64,000 nucleotides of DNA, from the NCBI GenBank assembly GCA_021324755.1, contig JAJPIL010000014.1, positions 310,001 through 374,000 of the forward strand. Direction: 5' to 3'. A model generated the notes under the pieces. That model was not told where the DNA came from and ran no database searches. It was given only the letters and a program-made list of their open reading frames with translations. Numbering within the stretch: position 1 is the first letter of the stretch; every line of letters starts with the position of its first letter. This stretch comes from Pseudomonadota bacterium. GTDB lineage: Bacteria > Desulfobacterota > Binatia > Binatales > Binataceae. A program made the position numbers and the translations under genes. Below are positions 8,031 to 52,087 of this stretch, in pieces.

Positions 8031-8972
8031 CTAAAGTTCTTCCTTGACTACGTAAATGGGCTTGTCTTGCGCCTCGTAGTAGATTCGGGTCAGCATCTCA
8101 GCGAGCAGGCCCAAACTGATGAACTGAACGCCCACCACCAAAAGCAGCACTGCCAGCAAGAGAGCTGGCCGACGCGCCAGCGAATAGCCGAGGGCGACTT
8201 TTTCGAAAACCAGCACCGAGGTCCAAAGGCCGCCGAGGGTGGCGAGAATTACGCCTATCGTGCCGAAGACCTGGATGGGGCGCGTCGAGTAACCGGAAAG
8301 AAACATCACCGTCATCAGGTCGAGCAGCGTGCGGATAACGCGCGACATGCCGTATTTGGAGTGGCCTGTCTGGCGGGGGCGAAAACGCACCGGTACTTCG
8401 CATACGCGGGCTCCTAGCTGCTGAGCGATGAAGGGAATAAAGCGATGCATCTCGCCGTAAAGACGAATTTGTTTCGCGATCTCTCTGCGGTAGGCCTTCA
8501 ACGTGCAGCCGTAGTCGTGCAACTTAAGGCCGGTGATACAAGAAATGATCAGATTGGCCGCCACGGACGGCAACCGGCGCGTCAAATAAGCGTTCTTCCA
8601 CCGGTCCACTCGCCATCCGGTCACCAGATCGTAGCCCTGCTCCTCCAGAATTCTGAGCAGTGTGGGAATATCCTGGGGATCGTTTTCTCGGTCTGCGTCG
8701 ATCGTTACTATGACCTCGCCCTGGGCGTTTTTAAGGCCGCAGGCGAGCGCCGCAGTCTGCCCACAGTTGCGAGCCAGACGCAGCGCTCTCACTCGCGCGT
8801 CGCGCGCTTTAAGTTCGCGCAGCACTGCGTCGCCGTTATCTGTGCTGCCGTCGTCGATGAACAGCACCTCCCATGAGCGTCCGAGCGACTCGAGCACGCG
8901 CTTCAACTCCTCGTACAGGGGAACCAAATTGTCGCGTTCGTTGAAGACGGGAATCACTACTGAGAGGTCCAT
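8031..8972 (-). CDS. GT2 glycosyltransferase, polyprenyl-phosphate sugar transferase type
   Basis: A 313-residue family-2 glycosyltransferase resembling ArnC, GtrB and dolichol-phosphate mannose synthase. These move a sugar from a nucleotide donor to a polyprenyl phosphate on the inner membrane face. The GT-A domain begins MDLSVVIPVFNERDNL and has FIDDGSTDN for donor binding and DADRENDPQD for metal. It is followed by RFRPRQTGHSKYG, typical of the polyprenyl group. Two hydrophobic helices lie at roughly 234-256 and 266-292. Its start overlaps the 3' end of the PfkB gene by 16 bases with no clear ribosome binding site of its own, so translation is probably coupled. Confidence 0.9.
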   Translation of the reverse strand: MDLSVVIPVFNERDNLVPLYEELKRVLESLGRSWEVLFIDDGSTDNGDAVLRELKARDARVRALRLARNCGQTAALACGLKNAQGEVIVTIDADRENDPQDIPTLLRILEEQGYDLVTGWRVDRWKNAYLTRRLPSVAANLIISCITGLKLHDYGCTLKAYRREIAKQIRLYGEMHRFIPFIAQQLGARVCEVPVRFRPRQTGHSKYGMSRVIRTLLDLMTVMFLSGYSTRPIQVFGTIGVILATLGGLWTSVLVFEKVALGYSLARRPALLLAVLLLVVGVQFISLGLLAEMLTRIYYEAQDKPIYVVKEEL

Positions 8973-9880
8973 CGCGAGCAGTAGCTGTCGGTGATCTGTT
9001 TGAAGGCGCGATGGCGCTGGTCGATATCTTCCCAGGTGAGCGTCGCCAAGCGGCCTAAGGAGAAGCCCTCGATGGCAAACGAAGCGACTACGCAGCCATA
9101 GACCGAGGCTGCTCGGCGGACCTCTTCGGTCAACCGTCCTACACGCGCGACGTAGCCCATAAAGGCTCCGGCAAAGGCGTCGCCGGCTCCAGTCGGGTCG
9201 ACCACCTCTTCGACGGGATAGGCCGGGGCGACAAACATCCCCTCCGGCCCCACCAGCAGAACGCCAGCTTCGCCACGCTTGATTACGACGGTTGTGGGAC
9301 CCATTTTGGCGATCGCGCGGCCCGCCTTGACCAGATTATGCTCTCCAGAAAGCATCCGCGCCTCGTCGTCGTTCAGCATCAGCACATTGATTCGCTTGAG
9401 AAGCCGCACCAGTCCGTTGCGCTCGTTTTCGATCCAGTGGTTCATGGTGTCCGCCCCAACTACCTTGGGGCTGACCATTTGATCCAGCACATATGCCTGA
9501 AGCTCAGGCGATATGTTAGCCAAGAACAGGTAGTCGCTCCGCTGCTGGTCGGGCAGTAATTTGGGTTTAAACTCAGCGAATACGTTGAGCTCGAGCTTGA
9601 GCGTTTCTCGCTTGTTCATGTCATCGGAGTAACGCGCTGTCCAACGAAAAGTCTTGCCCTCTCGTCGCTCCAGTCCGCGCAGATCGATCGAGCGGTCGGC
9701 GAACAGTTTGTAGTCGTCAGGGGAGAAGTCGGAGCCAACCGTTGCAACCACGCTAACTGGGGAGAAGAACCGCGCGGCCAAGGCGAAGAAGGTCGCCGAG
9801 CCGCCCAAGACATCGTTTACAAGGCCGAACCTAGTTTCGACGGTGTCATAGCCGATTGTACCCACGACGACAACGCTCAT
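8957..9880 (-). CDS. PfkB-family sugar/nucleoside kinase
   Basis: A ribokinase-like ATP-dependent kinase of 307 residues. The PfkB signature 2, DPTGAGDAFAGAFMG, carries the catalytic Asp and anion hole. The N-terminal signature is reduced to LGGSATFFALAA near residues 25-36. The short lid sequence resembles the kinases annotated as sugar or adenosine kinases. It follows methylthioadenosine phosphorylase by 48 bases. A role in purine or pentose salvage beside that enzyme is plausible, but the substrate is not decided by sequence. The downstream glycosyltransferase overlaps its end. Confidence 0.85.
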   Translation of the reverse strand: MSVVVVGTIGYDTVETRFGLVNDVLGGSATFFALAARFFSPVSVVATVGSDFSPDDYKLFADRSIDLRGLERREGKTFRWTARYSDDMNKRETLKLELNVFAEFKPKLLPDQQRSDYLFLANISPELQAYVLDQMVSPKVVGADTMNHWIENERNGLVRLLKRINVLMLNDDEARMLSGEHNLVKAGRAIAKMGPTTVVIKRGEAGVLLVGPEGMFVAPAYPVEEVVDPTGAGDAFAGAFMGYVARVGRLTEEVRRAASVYGCVVASFAIEGFSLGRLATLTWEDIDQRHRAFKQITDSYCSRWTSQ

Positions 9881-9928
9881 GTGTTTTCTCGTACCTTCGT
9901 TCAGTGGAGCTCGATGCGGCAGGCGTAG

Positions 9929-10792
9929 TCAAACATATTTGCCGATTAAGGGACGAAGTTGCTCTTTCAGTTCGGCTGGTATGAGCTTTCGGTCAGTTAT
10001 GATGGCATCCTTGAGCGACGAGGAACATTTACAGGATCGCTCCTTGTCGGCGAGCCTGTGGGCGAGGTTCAGCACGATTTTTTGCGCGGTGACGACGTTT
10101 TCTTGAAGCACGCGCAAGACATCGCCGATTTCCACTTCCTTGTGGTCGCGATGCCAGCAATCGTAGTCGGTCACCATCGCCAAAACCGCATAACACATTT
10201 CAGCCTCGCGCGCCAGGCGCATTTCCTGCGCGGCAGTCATCCCGATCACGTCGGCCTTAAAGGCTCGGTAAAGCTCCGACTCCGCGCGCGTGGAAAACTG
10301 GGGGCCCTCGATACAAACGTAAGTACCTCCGCGATGGATCCGGGCGCCACTTGAGCGAGCGGCCTGCTCCACCTCGGAGGAAAATTCGTTGCATACGGGG
10401 TCCGCCAGCGACACGTGCGCGACGATTCCCGCGCCGAAAAAGGTGGAAGGCCGTCTAAAGGTCCGATCGATGAACTGATCGACGATTACAAAGTCACCGG
10501 GCGCGAAATCTTCTCGAAGACTTCCAACCGCGCTTACCGAAAGAAGATATTCGATGCCCAAAAGCTTCATTCCGAAGATATTTGCCCGATAATTGACCTC
10601 ACTTGGCAGTAAGCGGTGTCCGCGCCCGTGGCGCGACAAAAAGACCGCCTCGAGCTGTCCAAGACGCCCGCGGAAATAGACGTCCGACGGCTTGCCGAAA
10701 GGCGTGCTAAGTTCGATCGTCTCCAGCATTTCGAGACCGGCTATCTCGTAAAAGCCGCTACCGCCGATTATTCCGAGCGCCTTTTGCCCCAT
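9929..10792 (-). CDS. mtnP: S-methyl-5'-thioadenosine phosphorylase
   Basis: It cleaves methylthioadenosine with phosphate to adenine and methylthioribose 1-phosphate, the first step of methionine salvage. In 287 residues from ATG 10792 (GGAG six bases upstream; the GTG at 10804 is part of that site) it has GIIGGSGFYEI, then SRHGRGH for phosphate binding. It also has CIEGPQFSTRAES and TDYDCWH. The Asp pair in DYDCW marks MTAP rather than purine nucleoside phosphorylase, which has Asn. No other mtn gene is nearby, so the methylthioribose phosphate may be handled elsewhere or by the neighbouring PfkB pathway. Confidence 0.93.
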   Translation of the reverse strand: MGQKALGIIGGSGFYEIAGLEMLETIELSTPFGKPSDVYFRGRLGQLEAVFLSRHGRGHRLLPSEVNYRANIFGMKLLGIEYLLSVSAVGSLREDFAPGDFVIVDQFIDRTFRRPSTFFGAGIVAHVSLADPVCNEFSSEVEQAARSSGARIHRGGTYVCIEGPQFSTRAESELYRAFKADVIGMTAAQEMRLAREAEMCYAVLAMVTDYDCWHRDHKEVEIGDVLRVLQENVVTAQKIVLNLAHRLADKERSCKCSSSLKDAIITDRKLIPAELKEQLRPLIGKYV

Positions 10793-11002
10793 ATCAGTCT
10801 CCACACCTTGACGTTCGTCGTGTCAGTTGACCAGATGCCCGAGGGCTCTCCCGTATCGCGCCAAGCTTTGTCTCAAGTTCGTTCGTCTTTGCTCACGAGC
10901 AAAGAGGACTCGTGCCGCGAGGCTTTTGACGTTTTGCAAATCCAAAATTCCCATGCCGCGTTCGTTGGTCGGATCCAATACGGCGAATCTCGACTGCTGC
11001 TC

Positions 11003-12163
11003 TCAGGCCGATGGCGACTTTAAAGTCGATCCGTCTTCTTCAGGCGTGGAATTCAAGGTCACCTTTTGGTGGTCTACGAGAGTGCGCAACTGGCCGCACG
11101 CCGCGGCGATGTCCGTGCCTCGGCTTTCGCGAATTGTAGCCGTAATTCCGGCCTGACGTAAGGTTGCCTGGAATCGCTGTGCCTGTTCGCGGGGAGTCGA
11201 TTCGAAGGCGCTACCTTCGAACGGGTTGAAATAGATCAGGTTTACTTTGCACCTCAGCGGAGCAAGCAGTCTCGCTAGGCGTTTGGCGTCGGCGATCGAA
11301 TCATTTACCCCTTTTAACAAGACGTACTCGAACGTGATTCGCGACCGGCCCTTTAAGGGCAGGTTTCGACACGCTTCGAGCAGCGTCTGAATCGGGAAGC
11401 GTCGGTTCACCGGCATCAGCCAGTCGCGCTGGGCGTCGGTCGTAGCGGTCAGCGATACCGCGAGGTTGACCCCAGTTTCGCGGAGCAGGCGCTCGATGAG
11501 CGGCACCAGACCCACCGTCGACACCGTGATACGCCTGGGCGAAATAGCCATTCCCCACGGCGCCGTCATCACTTGGAGCGCTTGACGCAGGCGTGGGTAG
11601 TTCGCCAACGGCTCGCCCATCCCCATGAATACGTAATTGGTAAAGGTTTCGGCCGTTGCAAGTGTACGGCAGGCTGCCAGAATTTGACCCAGAATTTCGC
11701 CAGCTGTCAAATTGCGCCTAAGCCCCATCTGCGCCGTAGCGCAAAACGCGCATCGCATCGCGCATCCCACCTGGCTCGAGACGCAAAGCGTAAGCCGGCC
11801 ATCGGCGGGAATGATCACGCTCTCGATCGTTTCGCCGTCGCGAAGTTGCAGCAACAATTTGCTCGTGCCGTCCGACGAAACCCTCTTTGCAGCGAGCTGT
11901 GGCAAGCCTACGTCGTAGGTCTCCGCAAGTCTGAGTCGCAGCGACTTGGGCAGGTCGGTCATCTCGGCAAATGAAAAGCGTCGGCCCCGATAGATCCATC
12001 TCATGACCTGTCGGGCGCGATAAGGCGCTTCACCCCACTGGCGAAAAGCCGCCTCGAGCTCCTGTAGCGAAATTTCCAGAATATCGGCCTTCGATGGGCG
12101 AAGTTCTTCGCTCGCAGACGGAGCGATTTGATCGTCTAAGTGAGTTTCCAACGGAGCACTCAC
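11003..12163 (-). CDS. rlmN: 23S rRNA (adenine-C2)/tRNA methyltransferase, radical SAM
   Basis: RlmN methylates C2 of A2503 in 23S rRNA and A37 in some tRNAs. The 386 residues carry the radical SAM triad Cys134, Cys138 and Cys141 in VGCAMRCAFC and the GMGEPLANY motif for SAM. Cys356 in AAACGQL, near the end, is the methyl-carrying resumption Cys. The fixed Cys spacing separates it from the resistance enzyme Cfr only weakly, but length and the N-terminal PYRARQVMRWIYRG are typical of RlmN. It lies 274 bases downstream of ndk and likely has its own promoter; mtnP follows after 210 bases. Confidence 0.95.
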   Translation of the reverse strand: MSAPLETHLDDQIAPSASEELRPSKADILEISLQELEAAFRQWGEAPYRARQVMRWIYRGRRFSFAEMTDLPKSLRLRLAETYDVGLPQLAAKRVSSDGTSKLLLQLRDGETIESVIIPADGRLTLCVSSQVGCAMRCAFCATAQMGLRRNLTAGEILGQILAACRTLATAETFTNYVFMGMGEPLANYPRLRQALQVMTAPWGMAISPRRITVSTVGLVPLIERLLRETGVNLAVSLTATTDAQRDWLMPVNRRFPIQTLLEACRNLPLKGRSRITFEYVLLKGVNDSIADAKRLARLLAPLRCKVNLIYFNPFEGSAFESTPREQAQRFQATLRQAGITATIRESRGTDIAAACGQLRTLVDHQKVTLNSTPEEDGSTLKSPSA

Positions 12164-18046: not shown

Positions 18047-19369
18047 TCATGCAGCCTCGCGACGGGCATAGCCGAGCAGTGGTTCGAGGTTTCCCTCGGA
18101 GTCGAACTTAAACGGTTTGGGCTCGCTCAGGACCTCGAATAGCGCAGGATTCTCTCTTACGTAGGGCATCATCGGCTCGGAGACTTCGATCTCTTCCAAC
18201 GCAAGAGTGTTATGGATTCGGACGAGTTTGCACTCTTGGGGCTTGACCCGGATTGCCGTCTTTACGGCGAGGCTTATCGCTTCCTTGTCGTTGTTCATGA
18301 TGATAGGGATGGCGCCGCCGTCCAGATAGGCCGAGGTGATAACGTTGGCATAGGTCTGCGCGATGTCCATCTCGCGGTACAGACGCATCGTGATAACGTC
18401 AGCCATGCCTACACCGCAGGCATTGCCGTGCGTTTCGGGCGTGAGCCCCAAAACCACAATTTTGCCAACGCGCGGTTTCGCGTCCCACTCGATCGAGCGA
18501 ACGTTCCGGCCGATTACGTTCGGGTCCATACCGGCTCCGCTGATGTTTTTGCCGATGCGCTCCACCACTAAGACGTCGATTGTGTCGAAGTAAAGACGCG
18601 CCATCAGCTCCCTTGCTCGCGCTAAAAGCTCGGGCTCGCGTTCGAGAATCCGTTCAGCTGGTATTATCTCCAGAATCGCCGTTTGGTCGCTGGCATTTTC
18701 GACCAGGGCGACCCCGAAGCTTATGTTTTTCTTGGCCATGATGAATTTGGCTGCTTTCGGCAAAAGCTCGCCGAAGCTGTCCATTCCATGGGTATGGAGC
18801 TCGGTGGCGCCCGCAATTTTCCCCATACCGATCGTCATCATCTTGACGATGCCCGATTCGATCGGCCCGCGAAAGTTGGTATGGGGTTTGACGCGCGCTA
18901 CGAACGCGACGGAGTCTGCCTCCCAGGCGAATTTGTCCATGTAGATCGGCGTGCCGTCATCTAAATGTCCCAGTTTGACGACTTCCATTGTCGACCTAAT
19001 CGGGCAGCCGACGCGCTCTTCGGTGACCCCGTAACTTTCGAGCACTTTGCGTTGTCCCTCCGCGGTAGCTCCACCGTGACTCCCCATGGCCGGAAAAATG
19101 AAGGGTTTCGCGCCCAGCGCCTTGAGCTCCGCAACTACCGCTTTTACGCACTCGGCGAGATTGCTGATGCCGCGACTGCCGCATCCCAAAGCAACCGTCA
19201 TACCTGGCTTGATTTTGTCGCGTATCCAGGATTGTCGAAACTGCTCGGACACGGCCTGGGTTACGCTAGCCAGTTTCGGGCTCTGAAACTTTTGGCGAAT
19301 TCTGACCATCCGGGGAAGCGTAACGTCGAGTCCTCCAGCTATGTTGACTTCGATGCGGTTGCCTATCAT
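18047..19369 (-). CDS. LarA-like (lactate racemase N-terminal domain) protein
   Basis: A 440-residue protein of the LarA superfamily (DUF2088), whose founding member racemises lactate with a nickel-pincer nucleotide bound to a Lys. Visible family features are GCGSRGISN and GSHGGAT. The segment KPHTNFRGPIESGIVKMM is followed by ELHTHG, where the His and Lys could take the LarA roles of His174, Lys184 and His200. The His-to-Lys spacing is 13 rather than 10, so it is not a classical LarA. No larB, larC or larE is present here, so the substrate and even cofactor are open. GGGGAGG lies ten bases before ATG 19369. It is read after the xox genes but behind a terminator. Confidence 0.8.
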   Translation of the reverse strand: MIGNRIEVNIAGGLDVTLPRMVRIRQKFQSPKLASVTQAVSEQFRQSWIRDKIKPGMTVALGCGSRGISNLAECVKAVVAELKALGAKPFIFPAMGSHGGATAEGQRKVLESYGVTEERVGCPIRSTMEVVKLGHLDDGTPIYMDKFAWEADSVAFVARVKPHTNFRGPIESGIVKMMTIGMGKIAGATELHTHGMDSFGELLPKAAKFIMAKKNISFGVALVENASDQTAILEIIPAERILEREPELLARARELMARLYFDTIDVLVVERIGKNISGAGMDPNVIGRNVRSIEWDAKPRVGKIVVLGLTPETHGNACGVGMADVITMRLYREMDIAQTYANVITSAYLDGGAIPIIMNNDKEAISLAVKTAIRVKPQECKLVRIHNTLALEEIEVSEPMMPYVRENPALFEVLSEPKPFKFDSEGNLEPLLGYARREAA

Positions 19370-19616: not shown

Positions 19617-19633
19617 AAAGCCCCCGGGGCTTT
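19617..19633 (-). terminator. Hairpin immediately after the XoxJ-cytochrome stop codon
   Basis: A perfect seven-base GC-rich stem, AAAGCCC and GGGCTTT, with a three-base loop begins within the TAA stop of the upstream gene. On the minus strand it is followed by GG and TTT, a weak T-tract. It should separate the xox transcript from the LarA-like gene at least partly. Confidence 0.5.
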
Positions 19634-20907
19634 TATTGCCTATGGTCCTGAAGGTAGCGAATGAAGGCGAAGATCTTTTTAATCTGGTCTTCGCTCAAGG
19701 CTCCCTTCCACGGTGGCATCCCTTGGTCAGCTTCGCCGTTAGTCACGACGGTTACGAAAAACGATTCTTCCTGCTCAGGAGGGATTCGTTTGAGCAGGTC
19801 AGGGATACTGCGCTCGGGATTGCCGGTTATGGCGTCGTCGCCATGGCAGTGGGCACAGCGAGAGTTGAACAGATGGCGTCCTTCCCGGGCTTGAGGACTC
19901 ATTTTAGCTTCGTCGATATCTGGCGGGTCGCCGTCCATCGCAGTTTGATCGTTCTGAGCCAACTTTTGGAGCCGACCTGCGTCCCTATCAGTGTGCCCTT
20001 TTGCGCTCACCTGTAAGAGTCCGGCCGATCTGGCTGTTGAGTGGCTAGCAATGGCGGGTAGGGGCGCGTTGCTACTTTGCGGCGAAGCCTTGGTAGGCTC
20101 CTTAACATCTATCGTGATCGGATTCCCTGAAGGGAACCCGTATTCTTCTTGCAAGTGGACAATCAGCGGTCCGACCTTTTCGAGTGCGCGGTCTAGCGCC
20201 CGGCGCAAATCCGCGTCATCCTTGCGTACGCCGATTGCTACCGGCCAATTAAGCCCGGGGCCGTTGGTCGGAATAACGTCAAAGCTGCTGCGAAGGTTGT
20301 ACTTGTTGTAGTAGCCGGCCGCTGGTCCCCATATGAAAGCCGCATCTGCCTCGCCCTTAGCTAGAACAGACATTGCTTCCTGCGGGCTGTCGCAGGTACG
20401 AGCCTCGATATCGTAGAGCGCCACCAAAACCTGTGGAAGCGTGCCAAATTGAACCGCTACGCGCTGGCCAGTAAGGTCGGCCAAGGAGCTTACTTTTTTG
20501 CCCCTATGGACAACCAGTGCATAACCTTCCCGCATGAACGGCCGCGTCAGGCTCAGGTATGGGGCGTGAAATCCATCGGTCGCAGGCAAGCCGACGTAAA
20601 CGTCGCATTGGTCGTTAGCGAAACCAAGACGCAGTGGCCGGTCTCCAGTACCTTCGATCCAAACGTATTGCGCGGCGCGTCCTATTTGAGGGCCAAGAGC
20701 GTCGATAAGTTCCAGATATAGCCCTTTGCGGGGTCCTCCGCGATGGGTAGTCGGAAGATTGTCCGGTTCAGCGCATACGCGTAGGGTTTGCGAGGGCCAC
20801 GCCTTCGACCATACGAGCCCCAGCAACAGGGGCGACAAAAAGCAAGCAGCCAGGCTACGGCACAGTCGCCTCTTTCGCCGACCACCGGTCTGCCTCTGTT
20901 CGAGCAT
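19633..20907 (-). CDS. Fusion of XoxJ-like periplasmic binding domain and c-type cytochrome
   Basis: A 424-residue exported protein with two functions usually on two genes. Residues 1-38 are a signal anchor or peptide with an Arg-rich n-region. Residues 40-265 form a type-3 solute-binding fold of the MxaJ/XoxJ kind (LRVCAEPDNLPTT, then CDVYVGLPATDGF, LTRPFMREGYALVV and LTGQRVAVQFGTLPQVLVAL). A Ser/Ala/Thr-rich linker runs to about 335. Residues 336-424 are a cytochrome c with CAHCH at 351-355 and Met397 in GMPPW as likely haem ligands. XoxJ is thought to activate XoxF, and XoxG is its electron acceptor. The gene follows the dehydrogenase by 65 bases. GAGG lies nine bases before ATG 20907. Confidence 0.85.
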   Translation of the reverse strand: MLEQRQTGGRRKRRLCRSLAACFLSPLLLGLVWSKAWPSQTLRVCAEPDNLPTTHRGGPRKGLYLELIDALGPQIGRAAQYVWIEGTGDRPLRLGFANDQCDVYVGLPATDGFHAPYLSLTRPFMREGYALVVHRGKKVSSLADLTGQRVAVQFGTLPQVLVALYDIEARTCDSPQEAMSVLAKGEADAAFIWGPAAGYYNKYNLRSSFDVIPTNGPGLNWPVAIGVRKDDADLRRALDRALEKVGPLIVHLQEEYGFPSGNPITIDVKEPTKASPQSSNAPLPAIASHSTARSAGLLQVSAKGHTDRDAGRLQKLAQNDQTAMDGDPPDIDEAKMSPQAREGRHLFNSRCAHCHGDDAITGNPERSIPDLLKRIPPEQEESFFVTVVTNGEADQGMPPWKGALSEDQIKKIFAFIRYLQDHRQ

Positions 20908-20972
20908 CAGCGCAGCCTCAAAGCTTGCGTGCGGGTCCGCGCGGGCAGCGTGCGCGGACCCGCAATTTTCGC

Positions 20973-22673
20973 TCAGTCGAGAGAAAAGACGAAGAGCGTT
21001 CCGCCTTCTGGAGTTCCGGCTGCGATCATCCGTTGACCGAGCTCACCGAAGTAGCTGGGAATCGCGGACAACTTCCCTGCGACTACAGCGACGTATTGTT
21101 TGCCGTCAACCAGATAAGTCATCGGAGCCGCCGCGATTCCGTTGCCGGTGTAGAACTGCCACAGAAGCTTTCCAGTGCGGGCGTCGCGGGCGTTGAAGTA
21201 ACCTTCCCAGTCGCCGTTGAACACAAGGCCGCCACCAGTCGCAAGAACGCCGCCATTAGCTGGCCACGGCTCCTTGACGCTCCATACTTCGCGGTGAGTG
21301 GTCGGGTCGATAGCGATCAGTTTGCCGAGATAACCGCCCGGACCAGCCAGCGTGCTGTTTTCGGTGCCGAGGTAGAAGTTGCCGCGATGGTACTCGATCT
21401 TCTGCTCCTTAATATCCTGGCACATGTTGTTGCTATTGATATAAAGCAAGCCGGTCTGTGGGCTAAAAGCCATTGGTTCCCAGCTTTTACCGCCATAAAT
21501 GTGCGGGCAGACGTACTTGGCGTCGTGGGTAAAGGTTGGACGCTTGTCCGGGTTCTCCACAGGGCGCTTGAGCGAGATATCCCAGCGTCTGGCCCAGTTT
21601 ACGAAGACGTACGGTTCGGCCGACATCAGCTTGCCGTTGCGGCGGTCGGCCACGAACAGAAAGCCGCACTTGCCCGCGTCGAGCAAGGCCGGGACGGTCT
21701 TGCCGTCAACTCTAAGGTTTGCCAGAGTCGGCGCCGTTGCGTCATAGTCCCAGGCGTCGTTCGGCACTTCTTGGAAGTACCACGCCATCTTGCCCGTATC
21801 CGGGTCAACTGCGATCACGCTCGAGGAGTAAAGGTTCGTGTACCGGCCGAAGTCCGAGCTATCCGGAGCGCGCGGCGCCACCGCCCATGGCGCGGGATTG
21901 CCGGTACCCCAATAGGTAAGGTTCAGTTCTGGGTCGTATGCCCCGATATCCCAGATCACGGCGCCACCGCGCTTCCAGCTATCGCCCTTCCACGTATCGT
22001 TACCACGTTCGCCTGGTCCCGGGATGGTGTAGATCCGCCACACAAGCTTACCGGTGGCCTGGTCGTAAGCCTGTAGCATCCCGCGCGCGCCGAACTCGCC
22101 TCCATTGATCCCAGTGATCACTTTATCGTGAATCGGCAGCGGTGGGGCGGTTATTTCCATGCCGGCTTTGTAGTCCGCAACTTGCGTTTTCCAAAGTTCG
22201 CGCCCGGTGTAAGCATCCAGGGCCACCAAATATCCGTCCAAACGCCCGACGAACACTCGCCCGTTGGCGAAGGCCGCGCCGCGATTATCGCCGCCGCAGC
22301 AGTTGTACGCGAGCACGTCCTTGGGAACGTTGCTGTCGTAGCGCCATTTTATCTTGCCCGTCTTGGCGTCGATGGCGTAGACGTACTGGGGCCCCTGTGA
22401 AGTGGTTACGTAGAGTGTATTGCCAGCCATAACGGGCGTAGTTTGATAATCTTTGAGCACCCCCAGCGAAACCGTATAAGCCACGTGCAGGCGCGACACA
22501 TTGCCCGTGTTGATTTGGTCAAGCGGGCTGTAATGGTCGTTAGCGTAGCTGCCCCCGTAGATCGGCCATTCGCCAGCCGAATTTTGCGCTCGTACGCTCG
22601 AGCCTACTGCAAGAATTACAATGAGTGCTAATGCCGCTGCCCAGATCTTGCGCGCGTTGTTCCCTTTTCCCAC
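20973..22673 (-). CDS. xoxF: PQQ-dependent alcohol dehydrogenase, XoxF-like (lanthanide type)
   Basis: A periplasmic quinoprotein that oxidises methanol or a related alcohol. I start at GTG 22673, preceded by GGAGGGAGG, giving 566 residues with signal peptide 1-29 (VRAQ); the open frame to 22913 is extension. Key residues in that numbering are the vicinal disulfide Cys125-Cys126 (NCCGGDNRG), Glu193 (GGEFGARG) and Asn259 (GTGNPAPW). The pair Asp309 and Asp311 lies in AWDYDA. The second Asp is the mark of lanthanide-binding XoxF; calcium MxaF has Ala there. Tryptophan-docking repeats such as AYTGRELWK are present. It is somewhat short for XoxF (about 600), so a lanthanide ethanol-type enzyme is an alternative. 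No pqq genes are in the window. Confidence 0.85.
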   Translation of the reverse strand: MGKGNNARKIWAAALALIVILAVGSSVRAQNSAGEWPIYGGSYANDHYSPLDQINTGNVSRLHVAYTVSLGVLKDYQTTPVMAGNTLYVTTSQGPQYVYAIDAKTGKIKWRYDSNVPKDVLAYNCCGGDNRGAAFANGRVFVGRLDGYLVALDAYTGRELWKTQVADYKAGMEITAPPLPIHDKVITGINGGEFGARGMLQAYDQATGKLVWRIYTIPGPGERGNDTWKGDSWKRGGAVIWDIGAYDPELNLTYWGTGNPAPWAVAPRAPDSSDFGRYTNLYSSSVIAVDPDTGKMAWYFQEVPNDAWDYDATAPTLANLRVDGKTVPALLDAGKCGFLFVADRRNGKLMSAEPYVFVNWARRWDISLKRPVENPDKRPTFTHDAKYVCPHIYGGKSWEPMAFSPQTGLLYINSNNMCQDIKEQKIEYHRGNFYLGTENSTLAGPGGYLGKLIAIDPTTHREVWSVKEPWPANGGVLATGGGLVFNGDWEGYFNARDARTGKLLWQFYTGNGIAAAPMTYLVDGKQYVAVVAGKLSAIPSYFGELGQRMIAAGTPEGGTLFVFSLD

Positions 22674-23091: not shown

Positions 23092-23808
23092 TTAAAGCTT
23101 TGCCGCGTCGTGAACCATGTCGGACCAGCGCCCAAAGACTGTTTCGGCAAGCTTTTCCAAAGTTGGCAGGTAACGGTCGGTTGATGCCAGAATGTCGTGG
23201 GCCGTCAATCCCACTTTAGCCAAGCTTTTAGCTCCGCTCTTGAGCATTCCCTCGATCACCTCGCGGGTGACTTCGAGATGGAATTGGAAACCGTAGGCGA
23301 CCTCACCGTACCGAAAGGCCTGATAAGGCGTGAGAGCCGAACTTGCTAGTGCAATCGCCCCTTGAGGCAGCTCGAAGTAGTCCTGATGCCAGTGAAAGGC
23401 TACGAGCGATGACCCTAGGCCCGCAAACAATCGGTCCGCGCCCGCGTCAGCCGAAAGCCGCACCTCATGCCATCCTACCTCGAGTTGTTCAGCGCGATCC
23501 ACTTTGGCCCCTAGAACCGCAGCCAGCAGCTGGGCGCCCAAACATACGCCCAGAATCGGCATCCCGGCTCGCAAAGCGGCCTCGATTAGGCGCATCTCCT
23601 CCCGCAAAAAAGGGTACTTTTCCTGCTCATAAACGCCCATGGGGCCGCCAAGAACGATAAGACCGCAGGCCGCGCCCAGCTCAGCCGGTACTGCTCCTCC
23701 TTCGTAGACGCGCACGTATTGCCAGGCGTGGCCGCCGGTTTCGAGAGCGTCCGCAATAGTGCCTAAGGCTTCAAGTGGTGTGTGCTGAACAACCAATACT
23801 TTCGGCAT
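23092..23808 (-). CDS. Class I glutamine amidotransferase-like protein
   Basis: A 238-residue cytosolic protein of the GMP-synthase-like GATase1 group. The nucleophile elbow is GVCLGAQ with Cys89, and the His177-Glu179 pair is in FQFHLEV, so the catalytic triad is complete. VLGGPMGVYEQEKYPFL is typical of stand-alone members found next to many unrelated genes. The synthetase partner is not here, and some relatives act as gamma-glutamyl hydrolases or transferases. It lies upstream of the xox genes on the same strand, 418 bases away, with no sign of co-transcription. Confidence 0.88.
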   Translation of the reverse strand: MPKVLVVQHTPLEALGTIADALETGGHAWQYVRVYEGGAVPAELGAACGLIVLGGPMGVYEQEKYPFLREEMRLIEAALRAGMPILGVCLGAQLLAAVLGAKVDRAEQLEVGWHEVRLSADAGADRLFAGLGSSLVAFHWHQDYFELPQGAIALASSALTPYQAFRYGEVAYGFQFHLEVTREVIEGMLKSGAKSLAKVGLTAHDILASTDRYLPTLEKLAETVFGRWSDMVHDAAKL

Positions 23809-47724: not shown

Positions 47725-48044
47725 TCCCAACGATAGCTCGAAATTGTGCCATTCCCCAACCCAGTTACCAAAACCACGTCCTGAAAAGTAAACCAAGTTT
47801 GCCGCTACTGTCTCCCCATTCGTGTAGGTATTGGCAGCCGCTTTCAAGGCTCTGACGGAACTGCTTCCAAAGGTTTAACCGACAAATTCTGGCGCGCCAG
47901 CCGCCAAATCTCTTCGTTCACCGTTCTTCCGGTGGAGTTTTATCTTGCCAGCGCAAAACACTTCCCCTGCTTAGGTGAGTAGCTGTTGTTGCGATTCACT
48001 GCCTAGCGTCAAGGCGCACCTTAGAGCTGAATTCTTTAAGGCTA
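47725..48044. other. Gap downstream of tRNA-Val
   Basis: 320 bases between the tRNA and the convergent stop of the CPA1 antiporter. I see no coding sequence, second tRNA, clear terminator or attachment-site repeat. Confidence 0.4.
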
Positions 48045-49523
48045 TTAAGCTTCGGGCCGACCGAGGAGCAGCTGTATAAAAGGTTGGTCAGCCGGTTTGC
48101 AGAGAACGTAAACGTGGTCGCCTGGGGCGAGCACAGTAGCGCCCTTCGGTGCGATCACTTCGTTGTCACGGATCAGCAAGATCACCGCGGAATCGGGTGG
48201 AAACGGCAGTTCGCTAATCGGCGCACCACACGCGGCGGCGGAGGCCTCGAGTGAAAACGAGATAATCTTTGCCCCCGTTAGCACGCGAGTAGAGACCACT
48301 TCCAGAAGCGCGGGCGGTGGAGGCGGCTCGTCGGACTCGATTCCCAACTGTCGTGTGAGCCAAAGCACCATCGAACCCGGAACAAAGGTGTTGACCAAGA
48401 CGACGAAGAAGACCGTATCGAAGATGAGCCTGGCGTCCTCCACGTGCCACAGCAGCGGGTAAGTGGCAAGAATAATTGGCAGAGCGCCTCTAAGGCCGAC
48501 CACTGCCAGATATACGAGCTCACGCAAGGGGTAACGGAATGGCAAGAGGCAGAGCATAACCGACCCGGGTCGCGCGAAGGCCGATAGCAGAATCCCTAGC
48601 GCGATGCCTTGGGGCGCAACTTTCAACAAATGCGAAGGAGTAATCAAAAGGCCGAGGACAAGGTACATCACCACCTGGCCCAGCCACGCGAGCGAGTCGT
48701 GGACGCGCAATATACCTGCGCGGTAAGGCATCTCGCTGTTCCCCATAATGAGTCCTGCAAGGTAGACAGCTAGAAAGCCGCTGCCGCCGACCAGTTCAGG
48801 CAGACCAAACGCGAGCAACGCAAAGCCCAGCGTCATCAGCGGATAAAGTCCACCTGCTGCGGGACGAATTCGCGGCGCCATCACGCGGCCGAGCCATCCC
48901 AACCCCAGGCCGAAGACACCTCCTACACCAAGGCTGAGCGCCATATGTGCAAAGCTTTGAGCAGCTAGCGGTGCTTCGCCGGCCAAGCTAAGAGTGAATG
49001 CCGGAGTCAAGCTTGCGGCCACCGGGTCGTTCAAGCAAGACTCGAGCTCCAAGATGCTGGCAACACGTTTCTGTGGCTGGATTCCGCTGCCCCGCAACAC
49101 GGGAAATACCACGGCAGCGTCGGTGGGCGAAACGACCGCCCCCAAGAGGAACGCCTGTGGCCACGAGAAGCCGAACAGTCGCGCACACAGTGCAAACAGC
49201 GCGGTCGTGCCGAGAACCCCAACCGTTGCAAGAACGATCGAAGGGAGGGCAAAAGAACGTGCCATCGACAAAGGGGTATTAAGCCCGCCGTCGAATAGTA
49301 TCAAAACCAGACTCAGCGTTCCCAAGACGAAAGAAACGTGGTAGCTCTGGCGAAGGACAACTCCTAGGCTAGTGCTCGAAGCGAGTAAGCCAAGCCCCAG
49401 AAAAGGCAAGATTACGGGCACTCCCACGCGTCGGGAGGTGCCGCTCAAGGCAACGCTTGCGAGCAGAAGTAAGGAGCAGATTGCTGCCAGGAAGGGAAGG
49501 GAAGAAAGTTGAGGCGTATTCAT
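48045..49523 (-). CDS. CPA1 cation/proton antiporter with C-terminal TrkA_C domain (NhaP2/CvrA-like)
   Basis: A 492-residue membrane antiporter, probably exporting K+ or Na+ in exchange for protons. About twelve helices cover residues 8-395, with FDGGLNT and the ion-binding region LELESCLNDPVA; here Cys replaces the more common Gly of ESGLNDP. Residues 400-492 are a cytosolic TrkA_C (RCK_C) domain (ISELPFPPDSAVILLIRDNEVIAPKG), which binds regulatory ligands such as nucleotides. It is divergent from the KimA-like potassium importer, and the pair suggests potassium homeostasis. The NhaP2 type with RCK domain favours K+/H+ exchange. Confidence 0.9.
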   Translation of the reverse strand: MNTPQLSSLPFLAAICSLLLLASVALSGTSRRVGVPVILPFLGLGLLASSTSLGVVLRQSYHVSFVLGTLSLVLILFDGGLNTPLSMARSFALPSIVLATVGVLGTTALFALCARLFGFSWPQAFLLGAVVSPTDAAVVFPVLRGSGIQPQKRVASILELESCLNDPVAASLTPAFTLSLAGEAPLAAQSFAHMALSLGVGGVFGLGLGWLGRVMAPRIRPAAGGLYPLMTLGFALLAFGLPELVGGSGFLAVYLAGLIMGNSEMPYRAGILRVHDSLAWLGQVVMYLVLGLLITPSHLLKVAPQGIALGILLSAFARPGSVMLCLLPFRYPLRELVYLAVVGLRGALPIILATYPLLWHVEDARLIFDTVFFVVLVNTFVPGSMVLWLTRQLGIESDEPPPPPALLEVVSTRVLTGAKIISFSLEASAAACGAPISELPFPPDSAVILLIRDNEVIAPKGATVLAPGDHVYVLCKPADQPFIQLLLGRPEA

Positions 49524-49993
49524 CCGGTGGTTAACCTAGTGGTCTCTCCTTCTGGGCCAATGGCGCACGCACGATGCAGGTTAAAGCGCATCTTCGACAA
49601 TATAACACAGGACTTGCACTGCATTCATATCACACGGCGAGTCAATCTCCCTTTGGTGCGTCACCGCAGGCTGAACGGTTGTGGCGCATCAGGTTTGCGG
49701 CACAAATTGCCTTGCGCCGAGGGCTAGATGCCTTGCCAGCGCGAAGAGCTGTTCCAGTGCAGCGGACCAGAATGGCGAGAATGCTGCTCCAGCGCGGGTT
49801 TTATTTAACAGCGCAGGGCTCTTTTCGACCTTCGAACTGGCAGGTAATTATTTTTTGACTAAGACACACACGTATTGTTTCGAGGAGTTTTGGGGGCTCA
49901 ATTTAGCGCCCTGCGGTATACGGGCCCACGCAATGGGTAATCAAGCTTGGTCCGCGTAGCGAGCCGGGTGGACCGATCTCGGGAGCAAGCGCT
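49524..49993. other. Long divergent leader between antiporter and KimA-like importer
   Basis: 470 bases that must hold both promoters. The 49890-49985 part has several GC-rich potential stems, for example GGTCC...GGACC at about 49948-49973. A c-di-AMP (ydaO) riboswitch would fit a kimA leader, but I could not match its conserved core. No coding sequence is convincing. Confidence 0.4.
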
Positions 49994-52087
49994 TTGCCAG
50001 GGTCATCAGAGAACGTAATCGATGGCGGGTCGCAGCCTCTCAAGCGTCACTGGCTGAGAAAGCTTATCCTCGGCCCACCGCGCGACGCCCGCGACCCAAA
50101 AGTGTACCATCGGCTTTCGTTGGTTGCCTTGCTGGCGTGGGCCGGTCTTGGGGCTGACGGAATTACCTCTTCGTGCTACGGCCCCGAGGAAGCTTTTCTT
50201 GCCTTAGGGCACCATCACTACCTAGCTCTTTTGCTCGCCCTTGCCACTGCGCTCACGGTCTTCATCATTTCAGCTTCGTACTCCCAGACGATCGATCTCT
50301 TTCCGACTGGCGGTGGCGGCTACACTGTGGCAACCACGTTGCTAGGCGAGACGGCAGGGCTCGTGTCAGGGTGCGCGCTGATCGTGGACTATTTACTGAC
50401 GGTTGCGGTTTCGATTTCAAGCGGCACCGACGCGATTTTTAGCCTGCTTCCCATGAGCTGGCATTGGGCGAAGCTTTGGTTTTCGATGTTCGTGCTTCTG
50501 ATTCTGATCACGATCAACCTGCGAGGGGTCAAGGAGTCAGTGCTCATTCTGTTTCCCTTGTTTATGGCGTTCGTTGTGATGCATGCGTGGCTGCTGAGTT
50601 ACGGTTTACTGTCGCATGCGCACAGGATGCCCGAGGTTGTGAGTTCGGGCTATACCAACCTTCGGCACGATCTAGATACACTCGGCCTTTTTGGTCTAGG
50701 CTTGCTTTTTCTTCGCGCATTCAGCCTTGGTGGGGGAACCTTTACCGGCATCGAAGCCGTGGCCAACGGTTTGCCGATTCTGCGCGAGCCGCGAACGGTG
50801 ACCGGCAAGCACGCCATGTCGTATATGGCCTTTTCGCTGGCTTTTTTGGCGGGCGGAATACTTGCCTGTTACCTGCTTTTCGACGTTGCTCCGCAGCCGG
50901 GAATGACACTCAATGCAGTTTTGTTTGGCAAAATAGCTGACAACTGGCGGCTAGGTGACGTTGCGATCGGACGTTTCATCGTAACGGTTACGCTTCTTAG
51001 CGAAGGCTCTCTATTGTTTGTTGCCGCTCAAACAGGTTTCGCTGACTGTCCCCGGGTGCTGGCTACGATGGCCTCTGACCGCTGGGTTCCGCGTCGATTT
51101 GCAAGTCTCAGCACGCGGCTTGTTACCCAGGACGGTGTGATTTTTACCGGTCTTGCAAGCGCGGTCATTTTGCTGGTTTCTCGCGGCAACGTCTCAATTT
51201 TGGTTGCGCTCTATGCGATTAACGTGTTTATAACCTTTACCCTTTCGCAGCTCGGAATGAGTGTGCATTGGTGGCAGTCCCGTCGGAGCGAACGTCGCTG
51301 GAAGCGAAAACTGCTGGTCAACGGCGTTGGTTGCATCCTTACCAGCGTAATTCTCGTCTTGACGGTCGTGCTGAAGTTCGACGAAGGCGGCTGGGTAACA
51401 CTGGCGATCACCGGCATGCTCGTGGCTTTATGCTATACGGTTCGCCGCCATTATGACCAATTGCGCGCGGCACTAACCAAACTCGAAGCGCGAATCTTAC
51501 CCGAGCTACATCGGGCCGAAAAAGGCGAGGCTCTTGCCACTGAGGACGGCTTAGGAAGCTCGATCGCGGTTATTTTGACCGGCGGATTTAACGGTTTGGG
51601 GCTAGCTACTTTACTGAACTTGCATCGTTTGTTCAGAGGCCAATTCAAGCATCTGATTTTCGTCGGAGTGGGCGAAATAGACTCTCGCGCTTTAAAAGGT
51701 CCGAAGGAAATTGAACGCCTCGAGCGCTCTTTGGCTGAAGACTTTAGAGCCTATTGTAAGCTTGCGTCCGACTTGGGATATCAAGCCTCCTTTAGACTCG
51801 CTGTGAGCCCTGACGTGGTGGCGGATCTCTATCGTTTGTGTTTAGAAGTAGCCAGGGAGCATCCCGAAGCCGTGTTCTTTGCGGGCAAGCTGGTTTTTGG
51901 CTACGACCAGGAAGATTTCATAACGCGCTTTCTCCACAACCATGTAGCGCTCGAACTGCAAAACATGCTCCAACTGCAAGGGCTGAGTCTAGTGATCCTT
52001 CCGAGTTGCGTGCGTTCCGACCAGCCAGCCGCAGGCGAAATGGTCGGACGCACCGGCAATGGAGCTGAGGCGGTCAGACGGGCTTGA
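49994..52087 (+). CDS. KimA-like potassium/amino acid permease (APC superfamily)
   Basis: A 697-residue inner-membrane transporter closest in pattern to KimA (YdaO), a proton-coupled high-affinity K+ importer. The shared features are a short lead LRKLILGPP, then GADGITSSCYGPEEAFLAL, matching the KimA SSDALSSVAYGTEQ with its ion-binding Asp. GGGGYTVATTLLGETAGLVSGCALIVDYLLTVAVSISSGTDAI is followed by FTGIEAVANGLPIL. About 12 helices end near residue 480, and a 200-residue soluble C-terminal domain follows, as in KimA where it dimerises. TTG 49994 follows GGGAG by nine bases. Other APC substrates cannot be excluded. Confidence 0.85.
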   Translation: MPGSSENVIDGGSQPLKRHWLRKLILGPPRDARDPKVYHRLSLVALLAWAGLGADGITSSCYGPEEAFLALGHHHYLALLLALATALTVFIISASYSQTIDLFPTGGGGYTVATTLLGETAGLVSGCALIVDYLLTVAVSISSGTDAIFSLLPMSWHWAKLWFSMFVLLILITINLRGVKESVLILFPLFMAFVVMHAWLLSYGLLSHAHRMPEVVSSGYTNLRHDLDTLGLFGLGLLFLRAFSLGGGTFTGIEAVANGLPILREPRTVTGKHAMSYMAFSLAFLAGGILACYLLFDVAPQPGMTLNAVLFGKIADNWRLGDVAIGRFIVTVTLLSEGSLLFVAAQTGFADCPRVLATMASDRWVPRRFASLSTRLVTQDGVIFTGLASAVILLVSRGNVSILVALYAINVFITFTLSQLGMSVHWWQSRRSERRWKRKLLVNGVGCILTSVILVLTVVLKFDEGGWVTLAITGMLVALCYTVRRHYDQLRAALTKLEARILPELHRAEKGEALATEDGLGSSIAVILTGGFNGLGLATLLNLHRLFRGQFKHLIFVGVGEIDSRALKGPKEIERLERSLAEDFRAYCKLASDLGYQASFRLAVSPDVVADLYRLCLEVAREHPEAVFFAGKLVFGYDQEDFITRFLHNHVALELQNMLQLQGLSLVILPSCVRSDQPAAGEMVGRTGNGAEAVRRA

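Follow-up and report, generated by a model that had tools for sequence, protein, structure and literature searches.

A PQQ-dependent dehydrogenase outside the XoxF/MxaF clade and an adjacent J-cytochrome fusion protein as a putative two-gene alcohol-oxidation unit

In a window of 64,000 nucleotides, the whole stretch of contig JAJPIL010000014.1 of a Binataceae genome that was analyzed, a PQQ-dependent alcohol dehydrogenase (DH) is followed by one protein, JG, in which a binding domain (J) precedes a c-type cytochrome (G). With a probability of about two in three, we propose that the two genes form a periplasmic alcohol-oxidation unit, in which DH is served by JG as electron acceptor and as docking/maturation partner. 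Using PQQ and probably a lanthanide, DH would oxidize an alcohol, for which C2 or longer compounds are likelier than methanol; the G domain would accept the electrons singly and hand them to the respiratory chain. The tethered J domain would dock on DH, where it may aid maturation (PQQ or metal loading) and/or keep the cytochrome near.

As described in the earlier note, DH and JG are separated by 65 bases. Both frames lie in tandem on the minus strand with JG located 3' of DH (Table 1). The GTG start of DH at 22673 has GGAGGGAGGA just upstream. The domain order of JG reported in the same note, a binding domain followed by the CAHCH motif in one protein, was borne out by matches to the TIGR03871 and Cytochrome_CBB3 models. 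A sequencing error or frame join was ruled out as the origin of JG, since 27 related loci encode the homologous J-then-G protein in an uninterrupted frame. The flanking genes encode a GATase-class protein (23092-23808) and a lactate-racemase-like protein (18047-19369), which, judged by their sequences, give no pointer to methylotrophy. Elsewhere in the window (48001-52000), the AT skew changes from +0.20 to -0.20 between adjacent 2-kb blocks. The genomes of close relatives were deposited as Deltaproteobacteria MAGs (FK3.bin127, DX1.bin15).

Table 1. Features of the DH-JG locus, in window coordinates.
Feature	Position	Strand	Details
PQQ-dependent alcohol dehydrogenase (DH)	20973..22673	-	566 aa; GTG start; signal-like helix 6-24
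Adjacent Cys125-Cys126	22296..22301	-	invariant in DH alignment
Glu193 (GGEFG), putative metal ligand	22095..22097	-	DH alignment; equivalent Glu in XoxF alignment
Asn259 (GTGNP), putative metal ligand	21897..21899	-	invariant in DH alignment
D309-Y310-D311, lanthanide signature	21741..21749	-	both Asp invariant in 25 aligned DHs
13-bp perfect hairpin in DH-JG spacer	20930..20964	-	z -3.5; coding strand without T-run
JG fusion protein	19633..20907	-	424 aa; ATG start at 20907
J domain, XoxJ/MxaJ-like, residues 40-265	20113..20790	-	profile match, alignment, tree
Flexible linker, residues 266-336	19900..20112	-	AlphaFold2 pLDDT <50 at 272-313, disordered
G domain, class I single-heme cytochrome c	19642..19899	-	CAHCH 351-355; Met397 likely axial ligand

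To analyze the distribution of the pair, named genomes were scanned, and the frames of the resulting 80 loci were profile-searched. J-then-G proteins were found in the genome's own family, Rokuibacteriota, Rhodopila and other Acetobacteraceae, Burkholderiales, an Acidiferrobacteraceae MAG and others. With each locus counted once, JG lies directly 3' of a DH of one clade, on the same strand, in 24 of the 27 loci whose J domains belong to the fused-J clade, and the relatives G008 and G015 carry the pair. This adjacency across several phyla supports the proposed unit, as does the finding that the DH and J trees share the same main groups. J-then-G was the sole fused order in the survey, but J-first fusions served as its seeds, which biases it with respect to domain order. 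No further match beyond the own genome was detected at E 1e-20 among 297 genomes across the phylum, so the distribution is patchy, and a plasmid search returned no full-length JG. In MAGs of soil Deltaproteobacteria (L093, L131), a second, independent J-then-G fusion adjoins a DH of the XoxF clade; its J domain passes the TIGR03871 cut-off in L093 (278.5 bits). L089 carries a fusion of the same type on a contig that ends before any DH is visible. A third, diverged J-G fusion (10677-11750) was observed in Rokuibacteriota L060 behind a different quinoprotein (region 8860-11750).

The J domain matched TIGR03871 over residues 42-259 (E 1.6e-26, 93.4 bits), below the curated cut-off of 212.15, whereas the free XoxJ of the same genome scored 228.9 bits and passed it. 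The best amino-acid-binding model reached 31 bits on J, and an ordinary amino-acid binding protein is thereby ruled out by the sequence models. AlphaFold2 modeled J with a pLDDT mostly above 90; in fold comparison, MxaJ and XoxJ (Z 22.5 and 21.4, MxaJ on top) ranked slightly above glutamine-binding protein (21.3). The 27 fused J domains form a single clade (98) beside free XoxJ/MxaJ. No SBP_bac_3 (PF00497) match was found anywhere in the own genome, although this is the fold of the JG and XoxJ domains, so the genome provided no outgroup for J. J thus appears nearest to XoxJ/MxaJ yet outside the curated family: the XoxJ assignment of the earlier note holds as to relatedness, J being nearer by sequence to XoxJ/MxaJ than to amino-acid binders, and falls short as to membership, with J below the family cut-off and in a clade of its own. 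The low J score weakens the unit model.

Cys45, Cys101 and the WGPxxG motif of J are conserved in 25 fusions, suggesting that a surface or pocket has been preserved. This retention speaks against the strongest alternative, that J is a passive tether or fold-stabilizing domain without activation role and JG a pure electron shuttle, which we regard as somewhat less probable than an even chance. The alternative draws on the long, flexible linker, on relatives that have DH and a free cytochrome with no J alongside, and on the length of the fused J, about 10 residues shorter than free XoxJ; the distance from the second Cys to WGP is 92 residues in the window J and 92-94 in all 27 fused J domains, compared with mostly 101-109 in free XoxJ. 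The solved MxaF/MxaJ complex 9ism, identified by title and structural match, shows J-type proteins to be capable of binding the dehydrogenase and supports the unit model.

The G domain matched Cytochrome_CBB3 over residues 339-416 (E 5.2e-13) and was modeled with a pLDDT mostly of 76-95. It is weakly similar to cbb3-CcoP and PedF models and missed the cut-offs of both the PedF cytochrome c550 model TIGR04494 (28.7 bits; cut-off 122) and the XoxG/cytochrome cL model TIGR03872 (MoxG; 22.8 bits; cut-off 147.8), so that the XoxG named in the earlier note is not recognizable here. Its close counterparts are free cytochromes encoded directly 3' of same-clade DHs in four relatives (G001, G011, G013, G016), with no J in the stretch examined. 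This arrangement supports the unit model. Since DH and a free cytochrome, but no J, are retained in close relatives, the cytochrome appears to be the core electron acceptor, with J as an added docking or maturation domain.

DH scored 592.7 bits against TIGR03075, the PQQ methanol/ethanol dehydrogenase family (curated cut-off 480.05, passed). The Asp-Tyr-Asp lanthanide mark of the earlier note is present, and its second Asp corresponds to the extra lanthanide ligand; Cys125-Cys126 corresponds to the disulfide motif of methanol/ethanol dehydrogenases. In the alignment, DH carries all XoxF-type lanthanide ligands, namely Glu, Asn, Asp and the extra Asp of D-x-D. The best PDB sequence match was XoxF 4mae, and the DH model superposed on europium/cerium XoxF with Z 50.8 and on PedH with Z 49.6. 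Intact ligands and superposition on both XoxF and PedH support the unit model, in which lanthanide use is thus predicted. In a same-clade DH at L067 (4151-5851), GGDYG replaces GGEYG/GGEFG at the metal-ligand Glu.

An unrooted maximum likelihood tree was built with references from solved structures, among them 6oc5, the Methylobacterium extorquens XoxF. The window DH, the other JG-linked DHs, the L042 DH of the own genome and the four free-cytochrome DHs form one clade (support 100/98), outside the clade of XoxF and MxaF (100/100); the side of the tree to which PedH-type enzymes are nearer is weakly supported (79/53). The alignments also revealed that the window DH lacks insertions of XoxF/MxaF, one following the W-x-AYS-x-GPD region and one close to the C-terminal GVGGW. 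A canonical, unfused set of xoxF, xoxJ and a cytochrome gene, the latter with two CxxCH motifs, resides elsewhere in the same genome (C29; L039 3327-10845), adjoining genes similar to pqqB and pqqC, a short frame similar to PqqD and a radical SAM gene similar to PqqE. The XoxF identity assumed in the earlier note was not supported, and on this sequence evidence the label appears wrong in the strict sense. The reading of DH as a diverged XoxF-type methanol dehydrogenase whose XoxJ and XoxG have fused is accordingly unlikely in view of its placement, the missing insertions, the canonical cluster and the exa/ped-like neighbors seen in Acetobacteraceae, even with the DYD motif, the Cys-Cys pair, the TIGR03075 score and the 4mae match in its favor. 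Rokubacteria proteins termed 'XoxF', which form a distinct branch and were detected in soil proteomes (PMC5103831), perhaps belong to the DH clade and would then also count for this reading. A bolder form of our preferred unit, a separate lanthanide system outside all XoxF/MxaF, spread over several phyla and acting on non-methanol alcohols, in which J docks on DH and swings the tethered cytochrome to it, so that a single protein would combine docking with electron transfer, is offered tentatively.

The gene neighborhoods bear on the substrate. In Rhodopila and other Acetobacteraceae, the order DH-JG is followed by an aldehyde dehydrogenase beside JG, which in L065 is ExaC (938 bits; cut-off 900). 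Farther on, these loci encode DUF779, PQQ_ABC_bind, PQQ_ABC_repeats and PQQ_ABC_ATP proteins (a ped-type ABC system), and a divergent LuxR-type response regulator lies upstream of the pair; in Burkholderiales L073, ABC components are present, a PedC-type permease among them. These exa/ped-type neighbors support the unit model and suggest ethanol-like or volatile alcohols as substrates in Acetobacteraceae. For the window the inference is borrowed, because a search of the own genome returned no ExaC above cut-off and no PQQ_ABC_repeats protein.

Three JG fusions of the 27 have no DH beside them (L040 2437-3726, a second fusion of the own genome, at C14; L047 7463-8695; L059 3494-4723), which weakens the unit model. 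Their company is conserved: a HAD hydrolase, a glycolate-oxidase-like FAD-linked oxidase and malate synthase. This company would fit JG as a sensor, regulator or partner of a different oxidase, placed beside DH by chance; the recurrence of the DH-JG pair in 24 of 27 loci from several phyla and the c-type heme motif of JG render this reading very improbable. The own genome also has a lone same-clade DH (L042 7093-8934) with no adjoining cytochrome found; its orthologs in four relatives are each followed by a free cytochrome. A partnership of this DH with orphan fusion B is unsupported, because G015 and G328 carry B without a close ortholog of the L042 DH.

Hairpins of different sequence occupy the same spacer in L046 (z -1.9) and L048 (z -4.1), likewise without a coding-strand T-run. 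From these three loci we infer that the hairpin may act in mRNA processing or stability and thereby allow DH to be made in excess of JG. The fixed ratio expected in the earlier note follows for J and G, both being in one polypeptide, while the spacer hairpins argue against a fixed ratio to DH.

For the role of XoxJ/MxaJ, the DH clade offers a natural series for comparison: same-clade DH accompanied by a free cytochrome but lacking an adjacent J, DH with the J-G fusion, and, in the genome that also has the fusion, a canonical XoxF with separate J and cytochrome. Comparing this series would distinguish what J contributes to activation from what G contributes to electron transfer. The DH-JG pair would extend J-type proteins beyond methanol oxidation, and soil surveys that score D-Y-D dehydrogenases as XoxF may blend two systems. 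We found no description of the J-G fusion or of the DH clade in the literature, of which few subscription papers were covered, so that this absence is weak evidence.

Among known systems, XoxF-XoxJ-XoxG likewise combines a D-x-D PQQ dehydrogenase, a J-type binding protein and a c-type cytochrome in adjacent genes; DH-JG differs in its separate DH clade, its sub-cut-off J with a shorter loop, its non-cL cytochrome and the fusion of J and G. The MxaF-MxaJ-MxaG system shares the J-type protein, MxaJ being the top structural match of J, but MxaF has DYA, not DYD (1lrw, 4tqo), and J and G are separate. The ExaF/PedH ethanol dehydrogenase systems pair a D-x-D PQQ dehydrogenase with a cytochrome partner and resemble the Acetobacteraceae DH-JG loci in their ExaC, DUF779 and PQQ ABC neighbors; in contrast, DH lies outside the PedH branch and JG takes the place of a PedF-type cytochrome. 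Methylacidiphilum XoxG:J (cytochrome cGJ) also joins a cytochrome and a J domain in one polypeptide that serves a lanthanide DH. In this xoxFJG:J arrangement G is named first, the J part is truncated and the operon has an additional full-length xoxJ (PMC6688271, PMC8498564). A known fusion of G-first order, which the earlier note ascribed to NC10 bacteria, is confirmed for Methylacidiphilum (PMC6688271). In JG, by comparison, J comes first and spans the binding-protein fold, the operon has no free J, and the dehydrogenase is a different one.
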